Shown piece after piece: positions 2,860 through 12,292 of a DNA stretch of 21,297 bases. The stretch's first letter is position 1. The number at the start of each line of letters is the position of its first letter. Below the pieces are notes generated by a model. It saw only the letters and a program-made list of their open reading frames with translations, did no database searches and was not told where the DNA came from. Both the position numbers and the translations under genes were made by a program. Source of the DNA: a virus; the IMG/VR virus record IMGVR_UViG_3300042565_000832, positions 1 to 21,297 of that record; one strand, 5' to 3'.

Positions 2860-4584
2860 ATGCCATCAGACACTTACACCTTAACCATTTCCGACGTCGG
2901 CGTTAGCACGCCATCCGCAGGTTCAGTTACGAATACATCCGTCGCTGCTGGCGCAGCAATCGCGTTTAGCAAGCTGGCAACCCTGACCAGCGGGAACATT
3001 CTTGTTGGCAGCAGCGCAAACGTCCCTACGTCCGTTGCGGTTACTGGTGCCATTACCATCTCCAATACTGGGGTTACTTCTATCGCCCCTTCTCCGACCT
3101 TAGTTACACCAATCTTGGGTACACCTACTTCTGGAACGCTTACTAGCTGCACGGGTCTTCCTTTAACCACTGGCGTCTCCGGGACTCTCCCAGCAGCAAA
3201 TGGCGGAACTGGACAGTCCTCTTACGCTATCGGAGACATCCCCTTCGCCAGCAGCTCTACGGCTTTGTCAAAACTTGCCGATGTAGCTACGGGCAACGCT
3301 CTTCTTTCTGGCGGTGTGGGCGCAGCCCCAGCCTACGGAAAAATAGGACTAACCACTCACGTCTCCGGGACTCTACCCGTTGCGAATGGCGGAACTGGTG
3401 TGACTACTTCGACCGGAAGCGGAGCCAATGCACTGGCTACTTCTCCGACCTTAGTTACACCAATCTTGGGTACGCCTACTTCCGGCACACTCACAAGCTG
3501 CACTGGTCTGCCTTTAACTACTGGTGTTACTGGAACTCTACCCGTCGCAAACGGTGGCACTGGTGTAACTACTTCGACCGGAAGCGGAGCCAACGCGCTG
3601 GCTACCTCCCCGACCTTAGTCACACCGATCTTAGGCACACCTACTTCTGGAACGCTTACTAGCTGCACTGGTTTGCCTTTAACCACTGGCGTCACTGGCA
3701 CTTTACCTGTTGCGAATGGTGGAACTGGCGTAACTACTTCGACTGGGAGTGGAGCTAACGCACTGGCTACTTCTCCGACTTTGGTTACGCCGATCCTAGG
3801 AACGCCCACTTCTGGCACGCTCACAAGCTGCACTGGTTTACCAATATCCACTGGAGTTTCTGGACTCGGCACCGGAGTGGCAACTTTCCTTGCAACTCCG
3901 TCAAGTGCGAATCTAGCTGCGGCAGTTACAGGTGAGACAGGATCAGGTGCGCTTGTCTTCGCTACCTCCCCGACTTTAGTCACCCCCGACCTAGGCACAC
4001 CTACTTCTGGCACGCTTACAGACTGCACTGGTTTACCAATATCCACTGGAGTTTCTGGACTCGGTACTGGAGTAGCAACTTTCCTCGCAACTCCTTCAAG
4101 TGCGAATCTAGCTGCGGCAGTTACAGGTGAGACAGGATCAGGTGCGCTTGTCTTCGCTACTTCTCCGACTTTGGTTACTCCTGTAATTGGAGCCGCCACA
4201 GGCACGAGTTTAGCGGCTACGGGCGCAATTACTTCTTCCGGCACAGCAGGTATAGGCTATGCAACAGGAGCGGGGGGAACAGTAACGCAACTTACAGACA
4301 AGGCTACTGATGTCACACTCAATAAGACTTGTGGTCGGATTATAATGAACGACGATTCATTAGCGCATGATACTACTGTTTCATTTACACTAACCAATAA
4401 CACAATAGAGGTTGGCAATGTCTTAATTCTTAATCATGTCAGTGGCGGCACCGCTGGTAAATACCTACTGAATGCTCAGTGCAGTAGTGGATCAGCAAGT
4501 ATTGACGTAACCAACATAACTTCGGGTGCTGAAGCAGAAGCCATTGTCATTGCCTTCGTAGTCATCAAAGCCGTAATAGCATAA
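2860..4584 (+). CDS. Large repetitive tail fibre protein
   Basis: This 574-residue fibre has three parts. Residues 1-77 form an N-terminal region likely to attach to the tail. Residues 78-441 are a shaft of repeats sharing SPTLVTPILGTPTSGTLTSC and PVANGGTG, a signature common in phage tail fibres. Residues ~465-574 form a globular tip of the GTVTQ-x-TDKATDVTLNK type, found at the ends of many phage fibres. The repeat cores start at residues 78, 195, 250, 305, 370 and 435, so two periods occur: 55 residues, then 65. Composition is Gly/Thr/Ser/Ala-rich with few charges, as expected for a trimeric beta-structured shaft. There is no S74 peptidase domain or collagen repeat. Confidence 0.88.
   Translation: MPSDTYTLTISDVGVSTPSAGSVTNTSVAAGAAIAFSKLATLTSGNILVGSSANVPTSVAVTGAITISNTGVTSIAPSPTLVTPILGTPTSGTLTSCTGLPLTTGVSGTLPAANGGTGQSSYAIGDIPFASSSTALSKLADVATGNALLSGGVGAAPAYGKIGLTTHVSGTLPVANGGTGVTTSTGSGANALATSPTLVTPILGTPTSGTLTSCTGLPLTTGVTGTLPVANGGTGVTTSTGSGANALATSPTLVTPILGTPTSGTLTSCTGLPLTTGVTGTLPVANGGTGVTTSTGSGANALATSPTLVTPILGTPTSGTLTSCTGLPISTGVSGLGTGVATFLATPSSANLAAAVTGETGSGALVFATSPTLVTPDLGTPTSGTLTDCTGLPISTGVSGLGTGVATFLATPSSANLAAAVTGETGSGALVFATSPTLVTPVIGAATGTSLAATGAITSSGTAGIGYATGAGGTVTQLTDKATDVTLNKTCGRIIMNDDSLAHDTTVSFTLTNNTIEVGNVLILNHVSGGTAGKYLLNAQCSSGSASIDVTNITSGAEAEAIVIAFVVIKAVIA
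3361..3855 (+). repeat. Three tandem 165-bp (55-codon) fibre-shaft repeats, synonymously diverged
   Basis: Units lie at 3361-3525, 3526-3690 and 3691-3855. Units 2 and 3 encode the same residues over their first 49 codons, yet by hand count 27 of those codons differ, all synonymously. Unit 1 differs from unit 2 by Ser/Thr at the second residue. A further partial core is at about 3091. Confidence 0.9.
3841..4160 (+). repeat. Near-identical 195-bp (65-codon) fibre-shaft duplication
   Basis: The segment starting at 3841 recurs 195 bp later at 4036. A 65-bp block is identical (3901-3965 and 4096-4160), encoding part of the ATPSSANLAAAVTGETGSG linker. The first 60 bp show only five synonymous third-base changes. 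This duplication is clearly younger than the neighbouring 55-codon units. Confidence 0.88.
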
Positions 4585-4588
4585 TGCC

Positions 4589-4990
4589 ATGACCAAGTTT
4601 CCCGATACCGCCATTTTCAAAGACGCAGGGATGCGGGGCGACTCACGCGTCTTTCAACTCACTGCGCCGTTCCGATACCACTCCCGTATCGGGTGGATTG
4701 AGTTACCTGCTGGCTTCAAGACGGACGGAGCGTCAGTCCCACGCGTGTTCTGGAACATCTTTTCACCGTTCGGCACTTACTTCCCCGCCGCACTCATTCA
4801 CGACTATCTCTACTCCAAAGCTAGTTCGTTTCACATTACCCGTGAAGAGGCGGATCAAATCTTCCTCGACGCGATGCACGACCTTGGTGTCGGCTGGCTG
4901 ACCCGCCGTATGATCCACCGTGCCGTTCGCCTTGGCGGATGGAAGGGATACAAAAAAAGCAAACTACAAGATGACTTCCAACCAGAATGA
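4589..4990 (+). CDS. DUF1353 family phage protein
   Basis: This 133-residue protein matches the DUF1353 (PF07087) pattern from memory: a strand-rich start, then LPAGFKTDGASVPRVFW, a central AALIHDYLYSK with conserved His-Asp-Tyr, EEADQIFLDAM, and a C-terminal helix RRMIHRAVRLGGWKGY. The family is common in tailed phages next to lysis genes, but its biochemical role is unknown. The stop overlaps the next ATG by 4 nt (ATGA), placing it in one operon with the holin-like and endolysin genes. The start used is the second of two nearby ATGs (4584 and 4589); the first is out of frame. Confidence 0.88.
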   Translation: MTKFPDTAIFKDAGMRGDSRVFQLTAPFRYHSRIGWIELPAGFKTDGASVPRVFWNIFSPFGTYFPAALIHDYLYSKASSFHITREEADQIFLDAMHDLGVGWLTRRMIHRAVRLGGWKGYKKSKLQDDFQPE

Positions 4991-5253
4991 GCGACACCGA
5001 AACAGCAGAGCTTTCCCGCGAGTGGCGGCAATCCGTCCGTGATGAAATGCGGAAGAATGGCGAAAAGCTGGATATGGTTCTTGTGGAGATTGGGAAAATC
5101 CGTAACGAGTTTGCCCCTGTTGACAGGCATGAGGACTTAGCAACCCGTGTCCGTAGCTTGGAGGAAAATCAAGCTCGCTTTCTTGGTGGGATTCTGATAC
5201 TTAACTTCATCGGCGGAATTGCTCTGGCAATCATAATGAGACTTTGGAAATGA
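4987..5253 (+). CDS. Coiled-coil / single-membrane-segment lysis protein (holin- or XhlA-like)
   Basis: This 88-residue protein has a charged N-terminal half with heptad-like helix (residues ~5-60, including VDRHEDLATRVRSLEENQAR) followed by one hydrophobic segment FLGGILILNFIGGIALAIIM (about 65-84) and a short basic tail RLWK. That architecture fits hemolysin XhlA-like or class III-type holin accessory proteins, which sit in the inner membrane and help endolysin reach the cell wall. It overlaps DUF1353 upstream and the endolysin downstream by 4 nt each. A role in lysis is inferred from topology and context; no specific family motif is visible. Confidence 0.7.
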   Translation: MSDTETAELSREWRQSVRDEMRKNGEKLDMVLVEIGKIRNEFAPVDRHEDLATRVRSLEENQARFLGGILILNFIGGIALAIIMRLWK

Positions 5254-5756
5254 AAAACCTCACAGAAGAAATCGTTCGCATCGCCAAGGCGGAAGTCGGC
5301 GTTCGTGAGGTCGGCAATACAAACTGCGGCGTTCGCGTGAACGAATACAAGGCGGCGACATGGCTGAACCCAAAGAGAGGATGGCCTTGGTGCGCGGCGT
5401 TCGTCTGCTGGGTAATCCGCGAGGCGTTGGCATCCTCCGGCACGAAACAGACAAAGACGTTCAAGCGTCCGAGAACCGCTGGCGCATGGGACTTTGAGAA
5501 CTGGTCTATCGAGCAAGACTCGACAACTTGGATGCGGCGTTCTCCGGGGAAAGACATCATGGCTGGCGACATCGTGGTATTCACCTTCTCCCATATCGGC
5601 ATCGCAATTTCCTCCCCCGACAAGAAGGGCAATGTGACTGTTGCAGAAGGAAATACTGACGACGCTGGATCACGCGAGGGCGGTGGTGTTTATTTAAAAA
5701 AGCGAAACATTTCCCGAATTCGTTCGCGTATTCGATTTAACATTCCGAAACAATAA
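5250..5756 (+). CDS. CHAP-domain endolysin (peptidoglycan hydrolase)
   Basis: The ATG at 5250 (ATGA overlap with the holin-like stop) gives 168 residues; an in-frame TTG at 5244 is less likely. The sequence contains GWPWCAAFVCWVIREAL with the predicted catalytic Cys48, a downstream VVFTFSHIGIAIS with His115, and VAEGNT with Glu133/Asn135 as the third active-site position, all in CHAP/NlpC-type order. The enzyme would cut peptide cross-links or the amide bond of peptidoglycan at the end of infection. No separate cell-wall binding domain or signal peptide is present. The C-terminal 24 residues (YLKKRNISRIRSRIRFNI then PKQ) are basic; a diverged second copy of this end lies at 6183-6239, beyond the HNH gene. 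Confidence 0.87.
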   Translation: MKNLTEEIVRIAKAEVGVREVGNTNCGVRVNEYKAATWLNPKRGWPWCAAFVCWVIREALASSGTKQTKTFKRPRTAGAWDFENWSIEQDSTTWMRRSPGKDIMAGDIVVFTFSHIGIAISSPDKKGNVTVAEGNTDDAGSREGGGVYLKKRNISRIRSRIRFNIPKQ

Positions 5757-6141
5757 CAGCATGAGTCGAACCTTTACTTTTTCTTCTGTTGATTTTTGCA
5801 AGTTCTTCTTTACACTTTTCAGTGTAAAACCTCATTCCTCGATCCCATGCCTCTTGTATATTTTGAGAGTGGTCGCCAACAGAAAGGTGAAGAGGATTTA
5901 CGCATTTTTTATTGTCGCAAGAATGCAATACAAGTTTTCCTTTTGGTATTTCCCCATTGTGAATTTCATAGGAAAATCTATGTGCCTTATGAAGTTTCTC
6001 GCCTCTTCGTCCTTTTTGAAAAACTCCGTAACCCGTTGTTGTCACAGCACCTGTCCAACTCCAGCAAGATTCACCTTTGCAAACCTTATCCCAAAATCTT
6101 TCTTCCGCTGTCTTTCTTAATTTTGCAAGTCCTTTAGCCAT
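5737..6141 (-). CDS. HNH homing endonuclease (HNH_3-like, free-standing)
   Basis: I chose the ATG at 6141 (134 residues) over an upstream TTG at 6174. The protein shows CWSWTGAVTTTGYGVF, then AHRFSYEIHNGEIPKG and LVLHSCDNKKCVNPLHLSVG, which is the usual order of the compact phage HNH family with paired zinc-binding cysteines and the catalytic His in LHSC. It would make a site-specific DNA cut in related phages lacking the gene. It is the only - strand gene inside the + strand block, its base composition is visibly AT-richer than its neighbours, and its 3' end overlaps the endolysin 3' end by 20 nt. All three points indicate an inserted selfish gene. Confidence 0.88.
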   Translation of the reverse strand: MAKGLAKLRKTAEERFWDKVCKGESCWSWTGAVTTTGYGVFQKGRRGEKLHKAHRFSYEIHNGEIPKGKLVLHSCDNKKCVNPLHLSVGDHSQNIQEAWDRGMRFYTEKCKEELAKINRRKSKGSTHAVIVSEC

Positions 6142-6297
6142 GCCGAATATTACCACATATCGGTCGTTGGTCAATACCGAATTACCTCAAAACTCGCAAT
6201 CTTTCCAAGATTCGTTCACGCATCCGATTTAATATTTGAGCAAACAATCGCGCAAAAAAAAGGCTATTCCGTCTAATTTGAGCAACATTACACGCAA
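6142..6297. other. Intergenic region after HNH gene, AT-rich
   Basis: This 156-bp gap is one of the longest in the window. It holds the diverged endolysin 3' remnant (6183-6239), an A8 tract (6254-6261) and two copies of an imperfect 23-bp direct repeat starting ATTTGAGCAA (6234-6256 and 6276-6298, 17 of 23 positions equal). No convincing promoter or Shine-Dalgarno sequence precedes the ATG at 6298. Confidence 0.6.
6183..6239 (+). pseudogene. Remnant: second copy of the endolysin 3' end
   Basis: Read in frame, these bases encode YLKTRNLSKIRSRIRFNI followed by TGA. The endolysin ends YLKKRNISRIRSRIRFNI (5691-5744) plus PKQ. Fifteen of 18 residues are the same, but only 39 of 54 bases match, and most differences are synonymous. 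There is no start codon and nothing endolysin-like upstream of 6183, so this is a 3' fragment cut off from its gene by the HNH insertion. Confidence 0.8.
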
Positions 6298-7098
6298 ATG
6301 AAACCACTGAAAAGTAAGTCTAAAATAATCGTCCTCCTTTCCGATTTGCATATCGGCTCAGTAGTTGGGCTATGGCCATCTGATTTCGTATCCACCGAAG
6401 GAGTCCCCATCGGGCAAAACGCATTCCAGCAATGGCTGTGGGCTTGCTGGAAAGACTGCCATGAGTGGATAGCCAAAACCGTAGGGGATGAACCTTACGA
6501 GTTGGTGATTAACGGAGACCTGGTGGAGGGAATCCATCATCGGACGACCCAAGTGATGAGTGCCGATATTGGGGATCAATCCTCCGCCGTGATCCAGATT
6601 CTTGAACCCGTGACAAGCAAAGCTGCTGGGGTTCACATCATCAAGGGAACGGAGTGCCACACGCGCAATGACGAGATTCGGTTGGGCAAAGTTCTAGGCG
6701 CATCGAAAAACCCAGAGAACGGGCAAAACGCTTGGGATAACCTCGACATTGAAATCAACGGGACGCTTATCAACTTCGCGCACCATATCTCAGCTACCTC
6801 CCGCCCGTATCTTGAGGCAGGAGCGCATTCCATTGCCTTGGGGACAATTACCCATTCCCGCGCAAGGGTAGGCAAGCGTGTCCCATCGGTGATCTGTCGG
6901 GCGCATAGGCATCGGCACGGAATCTGGACGGACGGCAACCAAGCATCGCTTATCACTGGCGCATGGCAGGGATTGACCCGCCACGGATACAAAGTTGTCC
7001 CTGACGCAATCTCAGAACCTTCCTGTATTATCCTTGACACAAGGACAACCGACAAGGGAGACTTGCCCCTGTTCCACCAACGTAAATACATACCATAA
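6298..7098 (+). CDS. Calcineurin-like metallophosphoesterase
   Basis: This 266-residue protein has the ordered metal-binding motifs of the calcineurin-like superfamily: LLSDLHIGS (Asp16, His18), INGDLVEG (Asp74), KGTECHTR (His121), a His pair at about 162-163, and ICRAHRHRHG (His203, 205, 207). The usual GNHE motif is replaced by G-T-E-C-H, a variant I have seen in other phage enzymes. It would bind two divalent metals and hydrolyse a phosphodiester or phosphomonoester; the substrate is unknown, with nucleic-acid ends or cyclic nucleotides being possibilities. The stop overlaps the ATG of the next gene by one base. No membrane segment is present. Confidence 0.85.
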   Translation: MKPLKSKSKIIVLLSDLHIGSVVGLWPSDFVSTEGVPIGQNAFQQWLWACWKDCHEWIAKTVGDEPYELVINGDLVEGIHHRTTQVMSADIGDQSSAVIQILEPVTSKAAGVHIIKGTECHTRNDEIRLGKVLGASKNPENGQNAWDNLDIEINGTLINFAHHISATSRPYLEAGAHSIALGTITHSRARVGKRVPSVICRAHRHRHGIWTDGNQASLITGAWQGLTRHGYKVVPDAISEPSCIILDTRTTDKGDLPLFHQRKYIP

Positions 7099-7328
7099 TG
7101 GCAAAGAGCATCCCGAAAGTTAGCGGCATGGACTGGATTGTTGAGCGACTCAGCCAGCAAGCCCTAGAGCCTGACGAGTTCACAGTAGAAATGGTCATGG
7201 AGAAAACCAAGGCAACTTCCTCGGCAATCCGTAGCAACCTGCAAAGAATGCGTAATGCGGGAGAAGTGACTAGCCGGAAACTGCTGATGAATGGTGTTTT
7301 TGTAAACGTCTACAAGCGTGTAGAATAG
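7098..7328 (+). CDS. Small winged-helix-like DNA-binding protein
   Basis: This 76-residue protein follows the metallophosphoesterase with a TAATG overlap. The pattern MDWIVERLSQQALEPDEFTV, then MEKTKATSSAIRSNLQRM and NAGEVTSRKLLMNGVFVNVY is that of a helix-turn-helix followed by a two-stranded wing: helix 2 and recognition helix at about residues 33-52, wing at about 56-74. It could regulate phage transcription or assist the neighbouring phosphoesterase. The assignment rests on predicted secondary structure and the buried hydrophobic pattern only. Confidence 0.65.
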   Translation: MAKSIPKVSGMDWIVERLSQQALEPDEFTVEMVMEKTKATSSAIRSNLQRMRNAGEVTSRKLLMNGVFVNVYKRVE

Positions 7329-7375: not shown

Positions 7376-8641
7376 ATGGCCGCCTTCCCACGATCTCCCG
7401 TCCGCCAGTCCGAGGTCTCTTTTGTCACCCCGCGAATCGCGGATGTTCTGTTCACAGAGCTGGTAGACTGCACCCGCGTCGCAGTTCCGGCGTTTGGAAC
7501 CCCCCACCCAAATACCATCAAGTGGCCTCACCATGAGCTGGTGTTCGCACGGGAAGCCGCCGAAGGGGACTCCGGCCGAGATGGCATGTTCGAGTTCTTC
7601 TACGCGGCCAAGAGGGAGAATCAGGACGACTACAACTTCGAGCAGCTAGGCGGGGAGCAGGTTGTCCGCACCTACGTGGTAAAGCGGGATCTTTACTTTG
7701 CCAGACCTGTTGGTCACGCGAGCGCTGTCGAAGACGAGTTCCTCTACCCTCCGGCTGGAGCCGAGTCACCCGACATTCGCTACTCCGACTTCTGCTTTGC
7801 TGATGACACCCAACGTCGCTATGAGAAGGAATTTGATTCTGTGTATGTGGTGATCCAGCGAAGGTTCATCCGACCTGTTACCGTGGACTACGTTTACGAC
7901 GAGCAGTTCAGACGTATCGTTCGCATCACCAAGGACGTAATCCCACGGACTGATGCAGCGCCGTCTCTCCCATCGAATGGTTCATCTGTCGAGATCCAGA
8001 GCGGAAACAATTACCACTCCATCAGAATCACCAAAGAGCTCGTCTTGCAGGACGGGGAAGTTTACCCCTACCAACTCCCCACTCTTCCGGGAAATCAGGA
8101 TTTCAGGTTTCCCTCTAAACTTGAGTCTGTGTCGTTGGTCTCGGCATATGCTTATGCTGCTGCTGAAGGTTCTGCCGCATCTTACGCCCAAGATTCTTTT
8201 TTCAAGCCAAAAATCATAGACCCACGCCCCGGCCCTTATTCAGCTACCGTATTACGTTTCGTAACTGACGACCCTGAGCAAATCAAAGTCACGTATCCGC
8301 TGACCAAAGTCCCTCAACCCGTTCGTGAAGCCATTTCTGAAATTTCTTGGTGGTATTACGCGAGTGAAGATTACGGGAATAAGGCTCAGGCGTCCGCTAA
8401 AGAATGGGCTGTCCCGTCAACAATCCATGAAGCAATTACGCTAAACGAAGACGAGCAAGAAAACCCGATTATACCACCACCCGACGCTCAACGGTATGTT
8501 CCCACTATTGAGGCGACTCCGGGGGTTGCTGAATTTCTTGCCTTAACGGAGGCTACTATTGGCTACCAAGTTCGAGAAATGCCATTTGGTCTTTTTGAAG
8601 TTACCGTAATAAAAATAGACATTGAAGATCTTTATGGATAA
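7376..8641 (+). CDS. Virion structural protein, unknown (tail-region)
   Basis: This 421-residue protein has no motif I can name. It is soluble, mixed alpha/beta, rich in aromatic residues and acidic, with alternating segments such as TYVVKRDLYFARPV, SVYVVIQRRFIRPV and QFRRIVRITKDVIP that suggest repeated beta domains. An Ala-rich strand region (SLVSAYAYAAAEGSAASYA) lies near the middle. Position after the lysis cassette and before three further structural-type genes suggests a tail, baseplate or portal-associated virion protein. The next gene overlaps its end by 8 nt. The start ATG has no Shine-Dalgarno sequence. Gene size, strand and spacing make it certainly coding; function is unresolved. 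Confidence 0.7.
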   Translation: MAAFPRSPVRQSEVSFVTPRIADVLFTELVDCTRVAVPAFGTPHPNTIKWPHHELVFAREAAEGDSGRDGMFEFFYAAKRENQDDYNFEQLGGEQVVRTYVVKRDLYFARPVGHASAVEDEFLYPPAGAESPDIRYSDFCFADDTQRRYEKEFDSVYVVIQRRFIRPVTVDYVYDEQFRRIVRITKDVIPRTDAAPSLPSNGSSVEIQSGNNYHSIRITKELVLQDGEVYPYQLPTLPGNQDFRFPSKLESVSLVSAYAYAAAEGSAASYAQDSFFKPKIIDPRPGPYSATVLRFVTDDPEQIKVTYPLTKVPQPVREAISEISWWYYASEDYGNKAQASAKEWAVPSTIHEAITLNEDEQENPIIPPPDAQRYVPTIEATPGVAEFLALTEATIGYQVREMPFGLFEVTVIKIDIEDLYG

Positions 8642-9515
8642 TCCCCAAGGAAAAACTCTCAAAGACTACACTCCTACTCCTTCTGCTCCTCAAGGTAGTG
8701 TCCAGATTGACCAAGGAATAGGCTACGAACCCGTGGAGTATAATCCTTTTGGTTCTCAGCGTGGCAGCGATCAGAGCGATACGTCCAACGGGCCGGACGA
8801 GATTCCGAACAACCTCTGGCCAACCCTCACGGGTAGTGCCGCCACAGGCTACAAACTAGCAATGACCCTCGGGCATGTTGATGCGCGTCAGCATGTAGGG
8901 GACGCAGCGTTGCCTATCGCGATCACGGACATCCCCGGACAACCCGACCCAATCGCCAACGCCCTACCCGTGGCGAGCGGCGACAAGATATTCTGTGAGA
9001 TCGTCGAGGACGTACGTGGCGTAGCCACCGCCGCAGCGATAAAGAAAGCAGCCTCATGGCCTACGTCCACCGCTGCGAGTCTAATCGGCGGCGATGACCA
9101 GACAGGGACGGAAGGAAAAAGAAACGTACGTCTTTGCGAGATCGTCACCGAGTCAGGACTAGTGCAGGTGAAAGTTTACCACTCGGGGAACATCGCCCAC
9201 TTCGCACCGGAGCTATTGGATAACCTCATAAGTTACGCAAGCGCGGGATCAGCGCGGGTGATGAAGCAGTGGAACACTTCAACTGGAACTTGGGACTTGA
9301 GGTATCTTAGAAGTGGGTCAGGTATCACGATTACTGAGAATGCAGATGATATTGAGATCAAAATGAAGGACGGCGAGACAAATGGAGACATGCTGTATTG
9401 GGACGCAACTGAGGAGGAATGGGTTTTGCTCGCAGCGCCACCCAGCGGATACACCCACGTCCTAAGTCACGACGGCACTGCTCCATCGTGGATCGAAACC
9501 GAGGAGTGCTCATAG
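8634..9515 (+). CDS. Putative tail / virion protein with fibre-like C-terminus
   Basis: I chose the ATG at 8634 (293 residues), overlapping the previous gene by 8 nt; an in-frame TTG at 8622 is also possible. The first ~60 residues are low-complexity, Pro/Gly/Ser/Asn-rich, typical of a flexible virion tether. A middle domain (about 65-200) is mixed alpha/beta. The C-terminus carries SGSGITITENADDIEIKM and DMLYWDATEEEWVLL with a closing TH-x-LSHDGTAPSW, a module I recall at the tips of phage fibres and tail proteins, where short beta strands form a trimeric end. A tail or appendage protein is therefore likely. Ends one base before the next ATG. Confidence 0.65.
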   Translation: MDNPQGKTLKDYTPTPSAPQGSVQIDQGIGYEPVEYNPFGSQRGSDQSDTSNGPDEIPNNLWPTLTGSAATGYKLAMTLGHVDARQHVGDAALPIAITDIPGQPDPIANALPVASGDKIFCEIVEDVRGVATAAAIKKAASWPTSTAASLIGGDDQTGTEGKRNVRLCEIVTESGLVQVKVYHSGNIAHFAPELLDNLISYASAGSARVMKQWNTSTGTWDLRYLRSGSGITITENADDIEIKMKDGETNGDMLYWDATEEEWVLLAAPPSGYTHVLSHDGTAPSWIETEECS

Positions 9516-11429: not shown

Positions 11430-11849
11430 ATGGACAGCAAACTAAAGAGCGCAGGGGTTTCCGGTTACAACAAGCCGAAGCGGACACCGAACCATCCAAC
11501 CAAGAGCCACGTTGTCGTAGCCAAGGTGGGTAGCGAAACCAAGACCATCCGATTTGGACAGCAAGGGGTTTCCGGGTCCCCGAAAAAGGAAGGGGAGTCC
11601 AAGTCCGCCGAGCTGCGTCGGGAATCATTCCGCGCACGCCATGCGAAGAACATCGCCAAGGGCAAGATGAGCGCGGCCTATTGGAGTAACCTGACTAAAT
11701 GGGCCATTTTACCTATTGCTCCATTAGATCAAAATGGTAATATCATCCCATGGCTAAAGCAAGACCACTCCCCAATGGCGTCTTATTTGTTGGAATGCGT
11801 GCTAAGAAAAGCGGAGGCTTTGAGTATGCTTTTTCAATCCCTTGCCTGA
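11430..11849 (+). CDS. Basic phage protein (DUF6321-like) with disrupted 3' end
   Basis: I chose the ATG at 11430. Residues 1-91 (KSAGVSGYNKPKRTPNHPTK, VKTIRFGQQGVSGSP-like block, RRESFRARHAKNIAKGKMSA, AYWSNLTKW) resemble a family of ~90-110-residue basic phage proteins that I recall as ending shortly after a ...AAYWANKVKW-type terminus. Here the frame continues for 48 more residues (about 92-139) into sequence unlike that family, and from 11750 it overlaps the HNH gene in another frame by 100 nt. The natural stop therefore seems lost through the HNH insertion. The native protein is probably nucleic-acid or virion associated. Family name and normal end are from memory. Confidence 0.65.
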   Translation: MDSKLKSAGVSGYNKPKRTPNHPTKSHVVVAKVGSETKTIRFGQQGVSGSPKKEGESKSAELRRESFRARHAKNIAKGKMSAAYWSNLTKWAILPIAPLDQNGNIIPWLKQDHSPMASYLLECVLRKAEALSMLFQSLA

Positions 11850-12292
11850 AGTGCAGAAAGGACAGGGTTGTAAAAAGGAGGCAGCACGCAATTTCTATGT
11901 CTAAGAAACCCTGCAAAACGTGCTCGAATAAGGACAACAAACCGGTTGGACTTGTAGGGCAGATCAGGGCCTCCTTTTTCAATAAATTCACCATAGGGGC
12001 GTCCCAAAGAAACAAAATATGGAACATCGACATTTCTTATGCGGCTCAGAAATTCGACGAGCAAGGCGGTGTGTGCGCGTTGTCGGGACTTCAGATTGAC
12101 GCAGGAGGTTCTGGATGCGCCCTTAGTGAGATCACGGCGAGCCTTGATCGGGTAGACAACGCGGTTGGGTATGAGCCCGGTAATGTCCAGTGGGTCCACA
12201 AGGAATTGAATATGATGCGCGGCTCACTAACAGTTGATCGGTTCAAGGAACTGTGTGCATATGTGGCCTCCCACAATAAAGTAAGATGGTGA
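11750..12292 (+). CDS. HNH endonuclease with N-terminal zinc finger
   Basis: This 180-residue protein has a CLKC...CKTC pair (Cys32/35 and 55/58) suited to bind zinc, then CALSGLQID (from Cys109), ASLDRVDNAVGYEPGNVQWV, HKELNMMRG (His150, Asn154) and a final helix. That order matches phage HNH nucleases whose core reads SLDRID-x-GY-x-NVQWVHK-x-N-M. It starts inside the tail of the upstream gene and its last 7 nt overlap the next ATG. It belongs to a different HNH subfamily from the gene at 5737-6141. A free-standing homing endonuclease is the best reading; the final residues NKVRW may be the displaced end of the interrupted neighbour. Confidence 0.87.
   Translation: MAKARPLPNGVLFVGMRAKKSGGFEYAFSIPCLKCRKDRVVKRRQHAISMSKKPCKTCSNKDNKPVGLVGQIRASFFNKFTIGASQRNKIWNIDISYAAQKFDEQGGVCALSGLQIDAGGSGCALSEITASLDRVDNAVGYEPGNVQWVHKELNMMRGSLTVDRFKELCAYVASHNKVRW

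Follow-up and report, generated by a model that had tools for sequence, protein, structure and literature searches.

A free-standing HNH endonuclease gene between two diverged endolysin ends in a phage record, and its probable movement together with a replacement gene end

The endolysin locus and its nuclease gene

The stretch of DNA analysed here (hereafter the window) comprises 21,297 nt of the IMG/VR virus record IMGVR_UViG_3300042565_000832 (positions 1 to 21,297). Its endolysin gene (5250-5756, + strand) encodes an intact protein of 168 aa with a CHAP domain (PF05257, E 3.7e-7; PHROG endolysin families), and the 3' end of the gene is probably hybrid. On the opposite strand lies an HNH endonuclease gene of 134 aa (5737-6141, - strand), which matches HNH_3 (E 6.6e-10) and PHROG HNH families (down to 9e-29) and whose 3' end overlaps the endolysin stop. 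This gene sits between two copies of the endolysin end. Copy 1, the one in use (5691-5744, +), reads YLKKRNISRIRSRIRFNI and then PKQ before the stop; copy 2, the stranded end (6183-6239, +), reads YLKTRNLSKIRSRIRFNI followed by a stop. Copy 2 lacks any usual start, since its frame (open from 6138 to 6239) contains no ATG, GTG or TTG. Behind it lie an intergenic stretch (6240-6297, +) with 86-90% identity to related loci L002, L003, L004, L008 and L012, and the next gene (6298-7098, +), which has a weak PHROG exonuclease match (E 4e-4) and is present in 31 of 80 related endolysin loci (the best 80 of 405). Upstream of the endolysin, a long repetitive protein containing units of the LPVANGGTGVTTSTG type (2860-4584) appears fibre-like by eye.

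The two copies share 15 of 18 residues and 39 of 54 bases, as the sequence-only reading of this DNA had described, and their identity ends on both sides (10/50 bases in the left flank, 15/46 in the right). Chance similarity was rejected: the pair scores 77 against a null from the flanks of other HNH loci (mean 25, sd 4.1, maximum 41), and the next-best ungapped match to copy 1 in the whole window, on either strand, reaches 32 of 54 bases. The differences between the copies comprise 10 synonymous and 5 nonsynonymous changes (pS 0.70, pN 0.13).

The nuclease possesses a homing-type domain and active site, the H, CDN, CVN and HL positions being invariant across 14 aligned sequences. Compared with the endolysin-linked HNH of locus L045 (L045a, 116 aa), pN is 0.18 and pS 0.78 across 101 aligned codons; judged by these substitutions, the gene is kept under purifying selection since the two diverged. 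By inspection, both proteins lack a C-terminal extension after the HNH core, presumably helix-turn-helix-like, that is present in 18 other chosen members and in a second HNH of L045 (L045b, 178 aa). The window HNH is thus not full-length in the sense of including the C-terminal DNA-binding part; its last codons extend into sequence antisense to the endolysin end, and without the extension it might be weak or inactive. A sigma-70-like promoter match (TTGACC-16-TAATAT; 6147-6174, - strand) lies within the insert, 5' of the HNH gene, and TTGACG-17-TATACT is readable in L045. These are consensus matches only and not evidence of function; the window region has three such matches, with 1.4 expected. 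A search of genome contigs with the HNH returned one Planctomycetota locus, and a PDB search with it gave no match up to E 1.

Relatives with and without the nuclease gene

Related endolysin loci were collected from IMG/VR (the best 80 of 405 qualifying stretches). Body and tail identities were tabulated for chosen subsets (22 sequences for the window comparison, 19 for the L045 comparison), endolysin ends were read out in 30 chosen loci of the 80, and a 40-base-window identity profile of the window endolysin was made with nine chosen relatives. Three of the 80 loci (L045, L046 and L055) carry a 72%-identical HNH directly 3' of the endolysin, and a more distant HNH occurs at other places in four further loci (L040, L042, L060 and L079). 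L045 and L046 probably represent a single phage recovered from two related samples; L055 comes from another sample, and the three HNH-bearing records (IMG samples 3300027733, 3300027734 and 3300032320) have the same junctions.

The endolysin of L045 is near-identical to that of L052 up to GACAAAAATGGCAA, where it switches abruptly before the HNH begins; after the HNH, the sequence becomes L052-like again within the native end, at ATCTCAAAGATTCGC. The insert replaces ~78 bp of native sequence and does not just abut it. Against 13 close relatives without an HNH at this position, the L045-type endolysin has 95-99% identity in the body and 59-60% in the last 97 bp, compared with a mean body-tail difference of -1.8 (sd 4.3, maximum 9.3) in a control of 120 pairs among 16 relatives lacking an HNH at the endolysin. 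Between L045 and L055, the unit of tail, HNH and stranded end differs at 2 of 556 positions versus 18 of 571 for the lysin body plus next ORF (Fisher p 3.7e-4), and identity further out is 64% (upstream), 89.9% and 96.4%. Since the bodies have different nearest relatives (L060 for L055, 1/380 differences; L052, L047 and L053 for L045, 7/380; L045 against L055, 10/380), the unit, end included, sits on two endolysin backbones. An FKLIRNVSK-type pattern was found in 17 IMG/VR stretches, and the three endolysins among these are those of the three HNH-bearing records. The stranded end of L045 was missed by the motif scan, which misses short remnants, and was found by reading the sequence; the L045a element, with a score of 44, also stays below its null maximum of 52 and rests on synteny.

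It had been proposed that one end was imported with the HNH gene, leaving the old end stranded, and that a simple duplication could be dismissed. For L045 and L055 the import and stranding are borne out by comparison with L052, L056 and other loci lacking an HNH at the endolysin, and a simple duplication is contradicted by the empty and filled sites around L045. The nuclease gene is optional: L045 and L055 are filled against L052, L056 and others that are empty, and the site is empty in L002 too.

L002 and L003 have no HNH at the endolysin, with protein identities to the window of 93% (endolysin) and 98% (next gene) for L002 and of 91% and 93% for L003. Window positions 4551-5744 and 6189-7226 align to the L002 record and overlap there by 48 bp: L002 has one endolysin end where the window has two, and both copies map to the same ~48 bp. 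The L002 sequence matches copy 1 as far as CGTTC; from there on it matches the downstream side of copy 2. L003 and L004, HNH-free and with endolysin bodies ~91% identical to the window, continue directly into LKT/FKT...SKIRSRIRF, which is copy-2-like; they supply the HNH-free relatives running straight into the 6183-type end that the sequence-only reading had named as support.

A divergent 3' tract of ~110 bp (5632-5744, +; left edge approximate), likely the imported arm, is marked by a shift in identity between these relatives. Scored in 40-base windows, identity of the endolysin body to L002, L003 and L004 ranges over 72-100% and is mostly >80%. From ~5630 onwards identity to L003 and L004 drops to 52-78%, and identity to L002 is 95-100% up to ~5710; over the tract, the former falls from ~90% and the latter climbs to 100%. 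The divergence from L003 and L004 begins near the same codons as the switch in L045. The step at ~5630 is not clear against six other relatives, because their bodies are already lower. Body and tail identities to the window are 91.5% and 64.6% for L003, 91.0% and 71.9% for L004, and 90.5% and 97.9% for L002, and the mean body-tail difference in 190 HNH-free pairs (L002 excluded) is -1.7 (sd 5.0). L003 (5390-5495) and L004 (5393-5504), both HNH-free, themselves have 93.7% body and 71.9% tail identity, so HNH-free phages, too, appear to swap ends.

We favour an origin of copy 1 by import, with copy 2 being the native end that was displaced, because the copy 2 peptide is of the common LKT..SKIRSRIRF kind and the DNA pattern of copy 1 (KKRNISRIRS) occurs in IMG/VR only in the L002 record. 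L002 would then be an excision product formed via ATTCGTTC, common to both copies, or the outcome of one-sided conversion. It also remains possible that an L002-like phage was the ancestor and copy 2 came in from outside. As HNH-free L002 shares the copy 1 tract, several orders of events remain possible in the window: an L002-like ancestor, later loss of the HNH, or conversion on one side only. For the L045/L055 unit, comparison shows flanks moving with the HNH; in the window, import and stranding fit, but with the copy 1 tract present in L002 and the ends of L003 and L004 also differing, import of an end together with the HNH is likely only and not proven. Searches found no HNH-free donor of any imported end, apart from L002 sharing that of copy 1. 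Separate intact genes carrying both ends, which would have counted against the reading, were sought in the 80 loci: the end motif matched once in 73, not at all in six (L028, L043, L073, L079, L080 and L081) and twice in L063 only. L063 has two endolysin genes on opposite strands (955-1440 and 3520-3975).

Other nuclease genes at gene ends

The second HNH of L045 (L045b; 8541-9077, +, 178 aa; element 8257-9144) lies 3' of a 602-aa gene that we take, from its motifs, to be terminase-like. The gene has no Pfam, PHROG or NCBIfam match, its best PDB profile match is a large terminase at a non-significant E of 0.18, and its AlphaFold model was uninformative (mean pLDDT 31). In L045 it ends KSSPLKKRFMSLASIYSN, with ~200 bp of its 3' end foreign relative to L055, and the native end, NKPNPLQKRFKQLAGLWAA, comes after the stop of the L045b HNH. 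All nine relatives examined that lack this HNH have the native end, and the imported-end pattern turned up in no records other than the two of the L045 phage.

The window itself holds a second candidate. A small conserved phage gene (11430-11849, +) has an altered native end and is interrupted by an Endo VII-like nuclease (11750-12292, +), with matches to phrog_3322 (endonuclease, E 6.4e-18) and phrog_1035 (endonuclease VII, E 4.2e-13). Six fetched homologues of the small gene end SAA[YFW]W[AS][NDS][KR][VTE]KW plus stop; the window reads SAAYWSNLTKW without a stop (left copy NLTKW, 11688-11702, +) and continues past LTKW, and the nuclease ends HNKVRW plus stop. A motif built from these ends matched 6 of 10357 ORF ends in the loci collected, exactly the six homologues. 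NKVRW plus stop (12275-12292, +), in frame with the nuclease, is probably the stranded native end of the small gene, putatively fused to the nuclease. The endolysin case is firmer, because here only five residues are involved, the motif is post hoc and no close relative, empty or filled, was found. The small gene is present in 48 records of the phage collection. The ATG of the following ORF (12286) overlaps the NKVRW end, as the ATG of the next ORF in L045 (5927) overlaps the stranded endolysin stop, and such overlaps may explain why stranded ends persist.

In a flank-pair survey of 109 HNH positions, 99 loci were testable, and among the best 22 of 179 tests only the window (77) and L045b stood clearly above their nulls; most HNH genes of the family of the window HNH are therefore without the pattern. 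Omitted from the survey were 6 of 32 loci in a first set (L082-L084, the L045/L055 element itself; L092, L098 and L107, near-copies by their match lines) and 6 of 80 in a second (L129, L144, L145, L189, L193 and L208, with the same records or match lines as others). L205 (45, null maximum 40), L150 (42, 37) and L156 (32, 31) slightly exceeded their nulls and are taken as chance, because their alignments stop 25, 11 and 43 residues before the gene stop. In a cruder flank scan the two L045 pairs (44 and 45) lay within the null (maximum 46, ~60 draws), L101 (51) and L112 (46) exceeded or reached that maximum, and only the window (77) stood out. A general scan of 3769 ORF ends across 225 loci gave further matches, of which the three inspected (L018, L066 and L184) were whole tandem genes and not stranded ends. 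In L042 (5418-6333) and L060 (2710-3641) an HNH directly follows a 75-aa minus-strand gene, the last codons of which depart from those of relatives (LGKYDGLE against LGKHEGLE); a stranded remnant is hardly visible, and this is a lead only.

A carried gene end, its alternatives and known systems

We consider it quite probable that the HNH gene is a free-standing homing gene in the endolysin 3' end that moves as a unit with a replacement end; its cleavage, mobility and cut site are inferred. On its left the unit would carry a diverged, protein-preserving endolysin end, which would join the recipient body in frame and keep the endolysin working without an intron or intein. The last codons of the recipient would end up on the right-hand side of the nuclease gene, without a start codon. 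The nuclease is predicted to cut HNH-free endolysin 3' ends, and repair would copy the unit through homology in the endolysin body on the left and the endolysin end on the right. The recoded end may then escape cutting, and recombination between the two ends could delete the nuclease and yield an L002-like product. A cut site near the endolysin 3' end, as suggested earlier, is a reasonable inference. The anatomy and, in the relatives, the movement as a block can be read from comparison of the records, whereas cutting, homing and immunity remain deductions.

An alternative that we hold to be unlikely, yet cannot set aside, is that the HNH entered by illegitimate recombination at a variable module boundary and that the ends reflect ordinary mosaicism not driven by the nuclease. 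The differing tails of HNH-free L003 and L004 suit this view, as does the region beyond the next gene, where L002 and L003 match the window only in short stretches (query to 12700), and nuclease genes are reported at exchange boundaries in the accessible part of PMC10448857. Ordinary mosaicism would not lead one to expect the same anatomy with sharp borders at two different genes, or a unit more conserved than its flanks and placed on two backbones; the purifying selection on the HNH and the finding that the three inspected matches of the general scan are whole tandem genes also weigh against it. A tandem duplication of the endolysin end, with later divergence and an HNH landing between the copies, would account for two in-register copies with the same final residues, but is very improbable: the HNH-free relatives examined or motif-scanned showed no stranded second end (the motif being blind to short remnants), the window copies differ by both synonymous and nonsynonymous changes, and one end of L045 is near-identical to relatives while the other is at 59%, which divergence in place cannot easily give. 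An intron- or intein-like insert that contains the HNH and whose splicing joins the body to copy 2 can scarcely be maintained, even though the gene end recurs after the insert: the HNH is on the opposite strand, copy 1 already yields a complete, stop-terminated endolysin, and no Rfam family reaches its gathering score in the window, L045, L055 or L002 (only two sub-threshold sRNA matches fall within window positions 5200-6400). An assembly chimera of two related phages is just as hard to credit, for although the window is an IMG/VR virus record whose junction is known from one assembly only, the homologous arrangement has the same junctions in three records, the first two probably from one phage, and the insert replaces native sequence instead of abutting it.

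Homing nucleases need conserved target genes and must not break them. The solutions known in phages are introns, inteins, gene splitting or a position beside the gene. Whether C-terminus replacement generally lets phage homing nucleases from different families reside inside essential genes without introns or inteins, with two examples in the window, is a proposition we regard as evenly poised. Under it, the recoded end would both repair the gene and hide the cut site, the displaced end would retain downstream start signals and serve as right homology arm, and recombination between the ends would remove the nuclease cleanly, as in L002.

A close parallel lies in the mobile ORFs with C-terminal duplications that the available text of PMC3630166 describes for atp6, atp9, cox2 and nad3 of Glomus and atp6 of Allomyces macrogynus mitochondria. 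There, too, an endonuclease ORF stands at the 3' end of a gene with a foreign in-phase C-terminus, and the displaced native C-terminus lies behind it. For Glomus atp6, identity between the ends is 63.5% in DNA and 91% in protein, with the displaced end matching a close relative (PMC3630166, as far as accessible). An in-frame end with a displaced native end is likewise the anatomy of the window, with import established in L045 and likely in the window. The fungal system, according to the same portion of that source, is mitochondrial and uses LAGLIDADG or GIY-YIG nucleases with an ORF sometimes in phase with the gene, whereas ours lies in a virus record with phage genes, employs HNH_3 (perhaps also an Endo VII-like nuclease) and has the endolysin HNH on the opposite strand. 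By analogy, the window element would work like the fungal mobile ORFs without being a member of them.

Among phage systems, the T4 Seg and Mob nucleases are free-standing and practise intronless homing with co-conversion of flanks (PMC2988022, accessible part). The window shares with them a free-standing nuclease gene without an intron, optional presence being the analogue seen here; the insertions discussed in the same part of that source break the gene they enter into two (mobE in nrdA, mobA in gene 60), unlike the replacement of the endolysin end. F-CphI of cyanophage S-PM2, an Endo VII-motif homing endonuclease that collaborates with the psbA intron, shares its nuclease motif class with the second nuclease of the window; it is free-standing beside its own target gene, and a gene-end duplication is not described for it in the available portion of PMC6083498. 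A replacement C-terminus accompanied by a stranded end is not described in the accessible portions of PMC2988022, PMC10448857, PMC12724721 and PMC6083498, and no report of a replacement C-terminus in phages was found among the papers listed in searches of the openly licensed PMC literature.

A carried replacement C-terminus would thus be a further solution to the problem of targeting conserved genes, one already described in fungal mitochondria (PMC3630166, in part). By that analogy, intronless homing nucleases carrying a replacement gene end, known before from these mitochondria, would now appear in phages. This leads to the predictions that the cut site lies in the native end, that immunity arises through recoding and that the new end is inherited together with the nuclease. 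It also cautions that gene ends in phages can be of hybrid origin, with consequences for trees and annotation.
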